From Bacilli bacterium (lineage in GTDB: Bacteria > Bacillota_I > Bacilli_A > RFN20 > CAG-826), in contig JAGBLL010000070.1 in the NCBI GenBank assembly GCA_017635465.1, positions 1-34,278 of the forward strand: DNA of 34,278 nucleotides, given 5' to 3'. A program made the position numbers and the translations under genes. Shown one piece after another: positions 8,318 through 12,577 of this stretch (positions are counted from its first letter, which is position 1; the number at the start of each line of letters is the position of its first letter). Under the pieces are notes generated by a model that was not told where the DNA came from, did not search any database, and was given only the letters and a program-made list of their open reading frames with translations.

Positions 8318-8323
8318 AAGTAA

Positions 8324-8525
8324 GTCCAGTGAAGAAGAGGAGTAATCTATCTCTTCATCAATAGAGAGTCGAGAATGGTGGAAGCTCGATGGTGAGAATA
8401 GATGAAGGTCGCTTTGGAGGAATAGTTGCCTAGCGAAAATAGGTTAAATAAGTGCATCCTTATTGGATGAACTAAGGTGGTACCGCGCATATAGCGTCCT
8501 TAGAATAGGGCGCTTTTATTTTTAG
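8324..8525 (+). ncRNA. T-box leader (tRNA-Val sensing) upstream of valS
   Basis: The conserved T-box core AGGTGGTACCGCG lies at 8475-8487, with the UGGU bulge (8478-8481) that pairs with the acceptor end of uncharged tRNA. Two exclusive structures are visible. The antiterminator pairs CTAAGG (8472-8477) with CCTTAG (8498-8503). The terminator pairs AGCGTCC (8493-8499) with GGGCGCT (8508-8514), followed by TTTTATTTTT. The candidate specifier is GTC at 8408-8410 in the context GAAGGTCGCTTTGG, a valine codon matching the downstream gene. Stem I covers about 8330-8420. Uncharged tRNA-Val is expected to allow read-through into valS. Confidence 0.93.
8493..8525 (+). terminator. T-box attenuator terminator of valS
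   Basis: A seven-pair stem (AGCGTCC with GGGCGCT, one U-G pair) and an eight-base loop are followed by TTTTATTTTT. It shares bases 8498-8499 with the antiterminator, so the two cannot form together. Confidence 0.88.
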
Positions 8526-8535
8526 GAGGGTAGTT

Positions 8536-11130
8536 ATGTTAGATAAACGCTACAATCATCTCGAAGTCGAGAAAGACAAATATCAGAATTGGAAAAGTAA
8601 AGGTTACTTTGCTAGTGGTGATAAAAGTAAAGATCCTTTTAGCATCGTCATCCCACCTCCAAACGTTACTGGTAAACTTCATATCGGTCACGCTTGGGAT
8701 ACGACAATTCAAGACATTATTGTCCGCTATAAAAAGATGCAAGGCTATGATGTTTTATGGCTTCCTGGCTGCGATCATGCCGGTATTGCTACCCAAGCTA
8801 AAGTCATGGAAAAGCTCAGAAAAATGGGCATAGACGTGACGACAATCACGAAAGAAGAGTTTTTGAAGTGGGCTTGGAGTTGGAAAGATGAATACGCTAA
8901 TACCATTCATGAACAATGGGCTCAAATGGGTTTAGCGCTCGATTATAATAAAGAAAGATTCACCCTTGATGAAGGCCTTAATTACGCTGTTAGAACAGTG
9001 TTTGTCACCCTCTATAACAAAGGTCTTATTTATCAAGGTGAAAGAATTATTAACTGGGACCCAGTACAAAAAACCGCTTTATCTAACGTTGAAGTTATTC
9101 ACCAAGATGACAAGGGCTATATGTATTATTTTAAATACCCAGTTGTTGGTAGTGATGACTATTTAATCGTGGCCACAACTAGACCAGAAACCATGTTTGG
9201 TGATGTCTGCGTGGTTGTTAATCCAAAAGATAAAAGATATACAAAATATCATGGAAAGAAGGTTATAAATCCTGCTAACCATGAAGAGTTACCAATCATT
9301 TGTGATGAATATGTTGATATCGAATTTGGTACAGGGGCGATGAAATGTACACCTGCTCATGACCCAAATGACTTTATCATCGGTGAGAAATATGGTTTTG
9401 AAAAGCCTATTATCTTTAATAAAGATGCGACAATGAATGAAAAGTGTGGTCAATACCAAGGTTTAGACAGATTCGTTTGCCGTGAAGAATTAATTAAGAA
9501 TATTGATAAAGAAGGTAACTTTGTTAAAAAAGAAGAAATTGTTCACCCAGTTGGTCATAGTGAACGTTCTAATGCTGTCGTTGAACCAATGCTTTCTAAA
9601 CAATGGTTCATTAAGATGAGACCACTCGCGGAACAAGCTCTTGCTAACCAAAAGAAAGAAAAAGATAAAGTTAATTTCGTTCCTGAAAGATTTGAAAAGA
9701 TCTTTATTCAATGGATGGAAAAAGCCGAAGACTGGTGCATTTCCCGTCAATTATGGTGGGGTCACCAAATTCCTGCTTATTATAATAAGCATACTGGTGA
9801 AGTCAAAGTGCTTATGGATCCTCCAGAAGATAAAGAAAACTGGGTTCAAGAAGAAGACGTTCTTGATACTTGGTTCTCCAGTGCTTTATGGCCATTTTCC
9901 ACAATGGGGTGGCCAAATAAAACCGCGGATTTAGAAAGATATTTCCCAACCGATGTCTTGGTTACCGGTTATGACATCATCTTCTTCTGGGTTTCTAGAA
10001 TGATTTTCCAAAGCTTAGAAATGAATGGCGTTAGACCATTTAAAGAAGTTGTTATTCACGGTCTTGTTAGAGATGAACTTGGTCGTAAAATGTCTAAGAC
10101 ATTAGGCAATGGCGTTGATCCAATGCAAGTCATCGCTGAATATGGCGCGGACGCTTTAAGATATTTCTTAACCACGAACAGCACACCAGGACAAGATATG
10201 CGCTATATCGATGAAAAAGTCCAAGCGGCTTCCAATTATTTAAATAAAATATGGAATAGCGCGCGCTATGTCTTATCAGTTTTAGGTGATGATTATAAAG
10301 AAGTGACCTTAGATAAAGCGAAGATGTCCGCTTTAGATCAATGGATTATTAATAGACTTAATACCACAATTAAAAACGTCACAATGAACATGGATAAATA
10401 TGACTTTAATGCGGCTAGTAATCATTTATATAACTTTGTTTATGATGATTTCTGCTCACAATATTTAGAGATGTCTAAAGTCGCTTTAAATAGTGATAAT
10501 GAAGAAGCTAAAAACATTACTAAAGCCGTGTTAATTAAGTGTTTGAAGAATATTATTCTTCTTATCTATCCATACACTCCATTTATCGCTGAAGAATTAT
10601 ATTGCTCATTACCAAGCCATTTAGATTCAGTCATGCTTGAAACTTATCCAGTTTACGAAAATGATTTAGTCAATTTTGATAAAGACAATCAAGTCGACCT
10701 ATTATTTAATCTCATTAAGGATGTGAGAAACTATAAGATCGAAAACAAATTAGCGCCTAATGCTAAACTTGACTTATCTTTATTAATTAAAGAAGAAGTC
10801 TTCTCTGATTTCTTAGTTTATTTAAGAAGATTTACTTTCTCTGATGTGAAGTTGCTTAATAATGACGAACATGTCGATGGTGAAGGTCATGTCTATAATG
10901 AAGCAGAGCTCTATATTGCTAGTAATGACAATAAAGATGAGCTTCTCGCTAAATTAGATAAAGACATCGAAACACTCACTAATGAGATTAAAAGATGCGA
11001 AAACATGCTCAACAATCCTAACTTTATTAATAAAGCCCCAGAAGCGAAAGTTTCTCTTGAAAGAGAAAAACTTGCTAAACATCAAGAGAACTTACAAGTT
11101 TTATTAGAAAAAAGAAAGAAAATTGCATAA
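8536..11130 (+). CDS. valS: Valyl-tRNA synthetase
   Basis: The 864-residue class I synthetase charges tRNA-Val. HIGH lies at residues 49-52 within PPPNVTGKLHIGHAWD and KMSKT at 518-522. Between them is the editing domain, with TTRPETMFGD and the GTGAMKCTPAHDPNDF segment, and then the WCISRQLWWGH region. The C-terminus ends in the charged coiled-coil arm usual for ValRS (about 800-864). Length is normal. The start has AGGAGG eight bases upstream. Expression is controlled by the T-box leader. A terminator follows at 11150. Everything needed for aminoacylation and editing appears intact. Confidence 0.99.
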   Translation: MLDKRYNHLEVEKDKYQNWKSKGYFASGDKSKDPFSIVIPPPNVTGKLHIGHAWDTTIQDIIVRYKKMQGYDVLWLPGCDHAGIATQAKVMEKLRKMGIDVTTITKEEFLKWAWSWKDEYANTIHEQWAQMGLALDYNKERFTLDEGLNYAVRTVFVTLYNKGLIYQGERIINWDPVQKTALSNVEVIHQDDKGYMYYFKYPVVGSDDYLIVATTRPETMFGDVCVVVNPKDKRYTKYHGKKVINPANHEELPIICDEYVDIEFGTGAMKCTPAHDPNDFIIGEKYGFEKPIIFNKDATMNEKCGQYQGLDRFVCREELIKNIDKEGNFVKKEEIVHPVGHSERSNAVVEPMLSKQWFIKMRPLAEQALANQKKEKDKVNFVPERFEKIFIQWMEKAEDWCISRQLWWGHQIPAYYNKHTGEVKVLMDPPEDKENWVQEEDVLDTWFSSALWPFSTMGWPNKTADLERYFPTDVLVTGYDIIFFWVSRMIFQSLEMNGVRPFKEVVIHGLVRDELGRKMSKTLGNGVDPMQVIAEYGADALRYFLTTNSTPGQDMRYIDEKVQAASNYLNKIWNSARYVLSVLGDDYKEVTLDKAKMSALDQWIINRLNTTIKNVTMNMDKYDFNAASNHLYNFVYDDFCSQYLEMSKVALNSDNEEAKNITKAVLIKCLKNIILLIYPYTPFIAEELYCSLPSHLDSVMLETYPVYENDLVNFDKDNQVDLLFNLIKDVRNYKIENKLAPNAKLDLSLLIKEEVFSDFLVYLRRFTFSDVKLLNNDEHVDGEGHVYNEAELYIASNDNKDELLAKLDKDIETLTNEIKRCENMLNNPNFINKAPEAKVSLEREKLAKHQENLQVLLEKRKKIA

Positions 11131-12063: not shown

Positions 12064-12369
12064 ATGTCAATTAGTGAATTTAGATACAATCGAAGAAGAA
12101 AACATTATTCATATTCTTTTAATAAACATAATTCACGTGTGGATAATATTCTTCTGACAACTAAACCATATAGGAAAAGACATCAACATTTGGAAAAGAA
12201 TGTTAAGTTATATAAACATCCTAATCCAAATAGTAATAAGCAAGCTTATATAATTCCTATTGTTTACAACGATGATGAAGCATCATTTGATTCTAAAGAG
12301 TTAAAATGGCAATTTCATCCAAATGATAAACGTAAAGTTAAGCGGATTAAAAAGAAAAGAAAAAAATAA
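12064..12369 (+). CDS. Small basic hypothetical protein, 101 residues
   Basis: The product is very basic: RYNRRRKH near the start and an all Lys/Arg/Ile tail (KRKVKRIKKKRKK). It has a central YKHPNPNSNKQAYIIP segment and no hydrophobic stretch or signal peptide. It begins one base after the radC stop, so it belongs to the same transcript. Such composition suggests RNA or DNA binding, but I see no recognised domain and assign no function. Its A-rich 3' end supplies, on the opposite strand, the U-tract of the minus-strand element described next. The two transcripts would therefore be convergent and overlap there. Confidence 0.68.
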   Translation: MSISEFRYNRRRKHYSYSFNKHNSRVDNILLTTKPYRKRHQHLEKNVKLYKHPNPNSNKQAYIIPIVYNDDEASFDSKELKWQFHPNDKRKVKRIKKKRKK

Positions 12370-12420
12370 AAAATGCCGGCAGTGAAGCACATCAATTAAG
12401 ACTGCATTATCCGGCAAAAA
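12362..12420 (-). ncRNA. Candidate minus-strand small RNA element, copy 1 (hairpin plus U-tract)
   Basis: On the minus strand, TGCCGG (12416-12411) pairs with CCGGCA (12379-12374). An inner GCA/TGC stem encloses a 13-base loop (12390-12402; plus-strand CATCAATTAAGAC). The hairpin is followed by T6-A-T6 (12373-12361), an ideal terminator tail on this strand only. A candidate promoter lies upstream on the minus strand: TTTACA (12445-12450) with TTTAAT (12422-12427), or TTGTAT (12450-12455) with TATGAT (12427-12432). Copy 2 repeats the design. The function is unknown. Confidence 0.55.
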
Positions 12421-12462
12421 TATTAAATCATATTTCATCAGTGATGTAAATACAATGTCAAT

Positions 12463-12515
12463 AAAAAAGTCAGCTCGAAGCGCATCAATTAAGACCGCTA
12501 TATCAACTGACTAAA
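12463..12515 (-). ncRNA. Candidate minus-strand small RNA element, copy 2 (hairpin plus U-tract)
   Basis: AGTCAG/CTGACT (12512-12507 with 12473-12468) replaces the outer stem of copy 1 base for base. The inner stem is GCG/CGC instead of GCA/TGC, a compensatory change. The 13-base loop (12483-12495) is identical to copy 1. A six-T tail follows on the minus strand (12468-12463). ATTTACAT lies 28 bases before the stem, as against 27 in copy 1, with a weak TTGAAT -10 (12519-12524) 17 bases from TTTACA. The whole unit looks duplicated. Confidence 0.55.
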
Positions 12516-12577
12516 TTAATTCAACCACATTAATCTAATTATGTAAATGCAAAAAAAGCAATTTCTCAAATTTATAG

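Follow-up and report, generated by a model that had tools for sequence, protein, structure and literature searches.

To our knowledge, few families of RNA antitoxins that act by binding a protein are known, and in these the RNA is encoded upstream on the same strand; nor do we know of a type III toxin-antitoxin system with a convergent layout. Type III toxins are endoribonucleases with the MazF fold, and a small RNA blocks their active site; they are encoded in an operon behind a set of RNA repeats and a terminator, the repeats being cut by the toxin itself (PMC5086642). A structured non-coding RNA likewise binds and neutralises a toxic protein in the AbiF system, where the RNA is known as RCd22 (Rfam RF03085; PMC12373285). 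A search of open-licence papers found none on a convergent MazF-fold/RNA system.

The window, by which we mean the whole 34,278-nucleotide stretch of contig JAGBLL010000070.1 from a member of the Bacilli (assembly GCA_017635465.1), contains a locus that resembles these systems and departs from them in its layout. We consider it likely that positions 12064-12547 form one cassette, a type III-like toxin-antitoxin system in which a MazF-fold toxin is silenced by hairpin RNAs that are convergent with it and transcribed separately. It is read as a cassette because the protein gene, ORF101, is gained or lost together with the RNA units and because a convergent RNA gene of this kind is found opposite most of the homologues inspected; silencing by RNA fits since type III toxins combine the MazF fold with control by RNA. 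The features of the locus are as follows.

12064-12369, plus strand: ORF101, a putative MazF-fold toxin of 101 aa, basic, with R7, H14, T32 and D88 conserved (from homologues, alignments, AlphaFold2 and Foldseek).
12360-12373, minus strand: U-tract of unit 1, reading TTTTTTATTTTTTT on the minus strand and overlapping, on the opposite strand, the final lysine codons and the stop codon of ORF101 (read from the sequence).
12374-12416, minus strand: RNA unit 1, a putative antitoxin RNA beside the toxin stop codon; hairpin TGCCGG...CCGGCA around the core GTCTTAATTGATG (covariance model R1, E 5e-12, the unit being in the model's seed).
12422-12450, minus strand: promoter of unit 1, TTTACA (12450-12445), 17 nt, TTTAAT (12427-12422), from the letters and with comparative support.
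12463-12468, minus strand: U-tract of unit 2, six T (likewise read directly).
12468-12512, minus strand: RNA unit 2; hairpin AGTCAG...CTGACT with the same core as unit 1 (R1, E 8e-15, also in the seed).
12519-12547, minus strand: promoter of unit 2, TTTACA (12547-12542), 17 nt, TTGAAT (12524-12519), again with comparative support.

With the type III systems ToxIN/AbiQ, CptIN and TenpIN this locus shares a MazF/Kid-like fold (here predicted), a small structured RNA that adjoins the protein gene and has a terminator, several RNA units for each toxin, and specific protein-RNA pairs. It differs in that the RNA genes lie downstream in convergent orientation and that each has a promoter and a U-tract to itself. 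There is no tandem-repeat precursor in the window, and no upstream RNA repeat array was found in the 5′ flanks of distant members. The RNAs are hairpins or three-way junctions; nested hairpins explain the covariation, and a pseudoknot such as known type III antitoxin RNAs form is not evident from the nested structures alone. The protein is also short, about 100 aa, and is matched neither by the ToxN model nor by other Pfam families; ToxN_toxin (PF13958) finds nothing in the window genome, though it does find real ToxN in another genome of the set (G099). The latter gene, L106 (G099:C23:460-975), is a true ToxN-family toxin, and classical type III systems therefore occur in the same bacterial family. 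The AbiF system resembles the arrangement proposed here in that a structured non-coding RNA binds and neutralises a toxic protein, but it involves another protein family, its RNA lies upstream on the same strand, and it has an Rfam model whereas the present units match none.

Both units lie in the gap between the end of ORF101 (12369) and the start of the rplU leader (12623), unit 1 only 4 bp past the ORF101 stop codon and unit 2 a further 94 nt away. The original prediction had recognised two minus-strand elements at 12374-12416 and 12468-12512, and these coordinates, the common core, the outer stems that differ yet both pair, and the six T directly after each unit were all confirmed. It had also described the 13 shared bases as an identical loop; the sequence is indeed common to both, but it is mostly paired and folds on. 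In each RNA, a predicted outer stem opens into an internal loop, beyond which come a GC(A/G)/(U/C)GC stem, a bulged G and a GUC/GAU stem capped by a UUAAUU hexaloop (ViennaRNA z-scores of -2.5 for unit 1 and -2.75 for unit 2), and comparative structures contain a conserved two-pair GA/UC element between the outer and inner stems.

The TTTACA box and possible -10 box noted before each hairpin are supported as promoters by a comparison of 34 units, 65% of which match the -35/-10 consensus at 9/12 or more positions, against 3.7% of random places. The spacer is 17 nt in 22/34 units and the -10 box ends 5-6 nt before the unit in 27/34; in both window units it ends 5-6 nt before the stem. A generic promoter/terminator consensus scan called neither unit because its fixed rules need A at -10 position 2 and loops of at most 8. 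A few units are without their own promoter and seemingly sit on a common transcript, namely a unit of G002 behind another unit, and the L095 pair. This tandem pair of units (L095 2821-2910) stands behind one promoter, nearer to the classical type III antitoxin repeat layout.

Further copies with compensatory stems, anticipated in related genomes, were looked for and found. Units are present in the congeners G002, G008, G013 and G014, and in the G008 copy GCC/GGU replaces GUC/GAU, a compensatory change. The units fall into three types: A (as in the window), B (core ACCC-UAAU-GGGU-GGGA) and C (GAUU...UCGUA). The argument that compensatory change reflects a selected structure was borne out, with 25 cells changed on both sides of a pair in the A/B alignment (A5, 14 units) against 8.0 in shuffles (0/500), and 14 such cells against 4.0 (0/500) in that of the sister type C (A6, 12 units), these shuffles ignoring relatedness. 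In the comparative structures, which were written from the same sequences as those tested, 93-94% of cells are paired, compared with at most 48% in slid versions. Covariance models R1 and R2 match 17 and 18 of 224 family genomes, respectively, and each weakly detects the units of the other, so that the A/B and C types are probably one RNA family. Rfam gave matches in the gap below gathering scores only, with no family for the units, in keeping with the earlier view that the RNA was unrecognised; on 20 related loci it found tRNA and the L21 leader only. GTCTTAATTGATG occurs exactly a third time in the window genome (G000:C131:2034-2046, L003), where it caps a perfect terminator-like hairpin without unit flanks; this copy is not matched by R1 and is probably a coincidence, and the printed one-mismatch copies of the 13-mer bear no resemblance to a unit.

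Could the hairpins be mere terminators, or a repeat element with no product of its own? Each ends in a U-tract, copies occur at several sites, and the exact 13-mer at G000:C131 caps an ordinary terminator-like hairpin. The promoters at fixed spacing argue against this, as does the little room for any other transcript to end there on the minus strand, and the units are paired with one protein family far above control (see below); we regard this explanation as very improbable.

The ORF101 protein is rich in lysine and arginine. No credible match to it was found in Pfam, NCBIfam, PHROG or PADLOC, or by sequence in the PDB, and Pfam gave none for its subfamilies. The AlphaFold2 model built from 21 homologues has a pLDDT of 92.6 and a pTM of 0.81, and all 50 best PDB matches listed by Foldseek are MazF-family toxins; against viral structures, the best named matches are PemK/MazF-like. 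A model of a remote member, whose alignment has just two sequences, L058 and L060, in common with that of the first, reaches a pLDDT of 93.8 and again matches mostly MazF proteins, with the type III toxins CptN (4rmo) at rank 3 and ToxN (4ato) at rank 28. With Foldseek E-values of 0.1-0.7 and TM of about 0.6, these matches point to a common fold, as distinct from close kinship or an active RNase. Aligned as a profile with MazF proteins from the same order, ORF101 gives a weak match (E 0.048) that falls in the expected register, with H14 on the arginine of the R-P motif and T-T on S-S; hhalign against one ToxN sequence gave no match. We predict from these models that ORF101 has a MazF/PemK-like endoribonuclease toxin fold. 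The likeness to type II MazEF/PemIK systems lies in this predicted fold. ORF101 differs in being without an adjacent protein antitoxin gene, its neighbours being radC and the RNA units; it is also less than 20% identical to those proteins, and in the weak alignment H replaces the MazF R of the R-P motif. PemK_toxin (PF02452) does not match ORF101 and finds another gene of the window genome, at G000:C100.

Homologues of ORF101 were found in 34/224 family genomes, up to four per genome. The profile detects further members elsewhere in the class, in families other than this one; in the window genome it detects five. Subfamilies are about 25-30% identical. Common to them are an H ahead of strand 2, often as H-P, a T/S motif at which strand 3 ends, an N-P and a C-terminal D; most also have a lysine tail. 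H14 is invariant in 61/61 aligned members, and 58/61 have T or S at position 32. In the phylum sample members were seen in this class only; these matches are the ones already given by the search of the class, which may dominate the draw. Searches of plasmids, phages and viral contigs with the ORF101 protein found none, and it is not evidently a phage or plasmid gene there. A contig scan with alignment A2 gave named relatives that are metagenome assemblies from uncultured Bacilli and Erysipelotrichaceae, most of them of ruminant-stomach origin.

Comparison of gene order ties this protein to the RNA units. In 13/15 congeners the rplU leader comes straight after radC, with neither ORF101 nor units, while G002 and G013, which have units between radC and rplU, have ORF101 there too, as in the window genome. 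In G014 ORF101 and units occur together at another site, behind a transporter solute-binding protein gene. ORF101 and the units are gained or lost as a whole cassette, and radC-rplU, where such cassettes are found in other genera too (L052, L055, L074), is a recurrent site for them. In the window the cassette is inserted between radC and the L21 leader (RF00559, 12623-12696, plus strand) that precedes rplU, with ORF101 on the radC side; elsewhere in the window, a T-box leader (RF00230, 105.8 bits; 8320-8504, plus strand) precedes a valyl-tRNA-synthetase-like gene (8536-11130). The original prediction read the units as a duplicated gene for an RNA of roughly 50 bases. The size (about 45-50 nt), the hairpin, the promoter and terminator of its own and the two copies are all supported; the idea of free-standing small RNA genes was dropped once ORF101 had been found as protein partner, in favour of one cassette. 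The earlier guess that the constant core may bind a protein is likewise supported, although the partner had been overlooked and ORF101 seen only as the end of an operon.

The 3′ flanks of most homologues inspected contain a minus-strand promoter, a hairpin and a U-tract whose end coincides with the stop codon or falls just inside it. A strict neutral detector found a convergent unit at 22/42 homologues compared with 3/169 control ORFs. With a relaxed detector the figures are 42/65 homologues and 40/307 controls (p = 8e-17), the related sequences not being independent and the 13% control rate calling for care with single cases; a unit on the toxin's own strand after the gene was found at 0/65. 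Many detector misses show a unit by eye, some homologues are without a clear one, and all five members in the window genome have a convergent unit on reading. RNA size and shape follow the subfamily: hairpins of about 45 nt stand beside ORF101-like proteins, the ‘HPAYVFLEKGN’ subfamily has units of 70-100 nt, one of them folding as a three-way junction, and others are found elsewhere. In four loci (L050, L051, L075, L076) the toxin ORF extends at its 3′ end into the hairpin, so that lysine-tail codons double as the opposite-strand terminator. Three toxin-family members (L178, L180, L181, in G590, G524 and G529) have as neighbour, on the opposite strand, what looks like an XRE-like helix-turn-helix gene, and there the convergent RNA is less clear or absent.

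On the protein tree of the ORF101 subfamily there is one switch between A/B and C as the type of the proximal RNA, the type call being weaker for L046 and L047. The branch concerned has support of 94/96 and is present in all 200 bootstrap trees, and 0/500 shuffles gave as low a number of switches. G000, G002 and G013 have paralogues of both clades, each beside the matching RNA type. Such a match would be expected if each RNA were recognised by its own protein, and simple inheritance of the cassette in one piece would also give it.

These observations bear on the main rival explanation, in which the RNAs act in cis like those of type I systems, by antisense pairing with the 3′ end of the toxin mRNA, and do not bind the protein. 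In the B. subtilis type I systems txpA/RatA and bsrG/SR4 the small RNA is likewise convergent at the 3′ end of the toxin gene and overlaps it (PMC7430163). Read-through from the toxin gene would here be complementary to both units, and the RNA overlaps the ORF end in L050, L051, L075 and L076. However, those toxins are hydrophobic peptides of 30-83 aa controlled by RNA pairing with their mRNA, whereas ORF101 is a basic protein of 101 aa with a predicted MazF fold; most units end at the stop codon or past it, the second unit of the window being 94 nt further off; and the stems covary around a conserved internal core, in RNAs whose type tracks the protein clade. We therefore judge antisense action unlikely. 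Alternatively, ORF101 could be a partner of another kind, a regulator or chaperone that forms with the RNA a ribonucleoprotein having some other task. The protein is very basic and is inherited together with a structured RNA, and likeness of fold does not prove RNase activity; a toxin is nevertheless the better fit to the sporadic distribution, the several divergent copies per genome, the gain and loss of the cassette, and a MazF fold with conserved His and Thr/Ser, which makes a non-toxin partner improbable.

Some units stand without an intact ORF101-like gene alongside. An orphan C-type unit and a weak A-type-like unit lie in tandem beside a 65-aa toxin-family fragment at G000:C14:71669-71798 (L208, L154, L150). 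The units of G008 converge on a divergent ‘HPSISI...THS’ protein that is broken in G005. At L130 and L131 (G179, G184) an A-type unit faces an ORF6N-like gene, which by its motif may encode an ORF6N-domain protein, with no family toxin between. Orphan units of this kind could protect the cell against toxins that it no longer carries.

Under the toxin-antitoxin reading that we favour, we infer that the units are transcribed and that ORF101 is a toxic, RNA-cutting protein, which the two RNAs of about 45-50 nt would bind and silence. Each RNA would start at about the first base of the stem and end in its own U-tract; it would thus be made ready-sized and in excess, with no cutting of a repeat precursor, unlike in ToxIN. 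The part recognised by the protein would be the conserved internal loop (GA/UC pair and bulge) and apical helix, leaving the outer stem free to change. If RNA synthesis were to stop, for instance upon phage infection, the short RNAs might decay first and the toxin would be freed.

On balance we lean towards a broader view, in which ORF101 belongs to an unnamed large superfamily of MazF-fold toxins of about 100 aa that spans several families of one class, each subfamily having its own convergent, individually promoted hairpin or three-way-junction RNA, along with possibly protective orphan units. This would be a separate architecture beside types I, III and VIII. If true, convergent, ready-sized RNAs of 45-100 nt, many matched pairs and several copies in a small genome would offer a natural set for studying the inhibition of MazF-fold RNases by small RNAs and the shifts in their specificity. 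A protein family of uncultured rumen and gut bacteria that none of the libraries searched recognises would also receive a name, and the genomes of these bacteria may carry phage-defence or addiction modules that annotation now misses.
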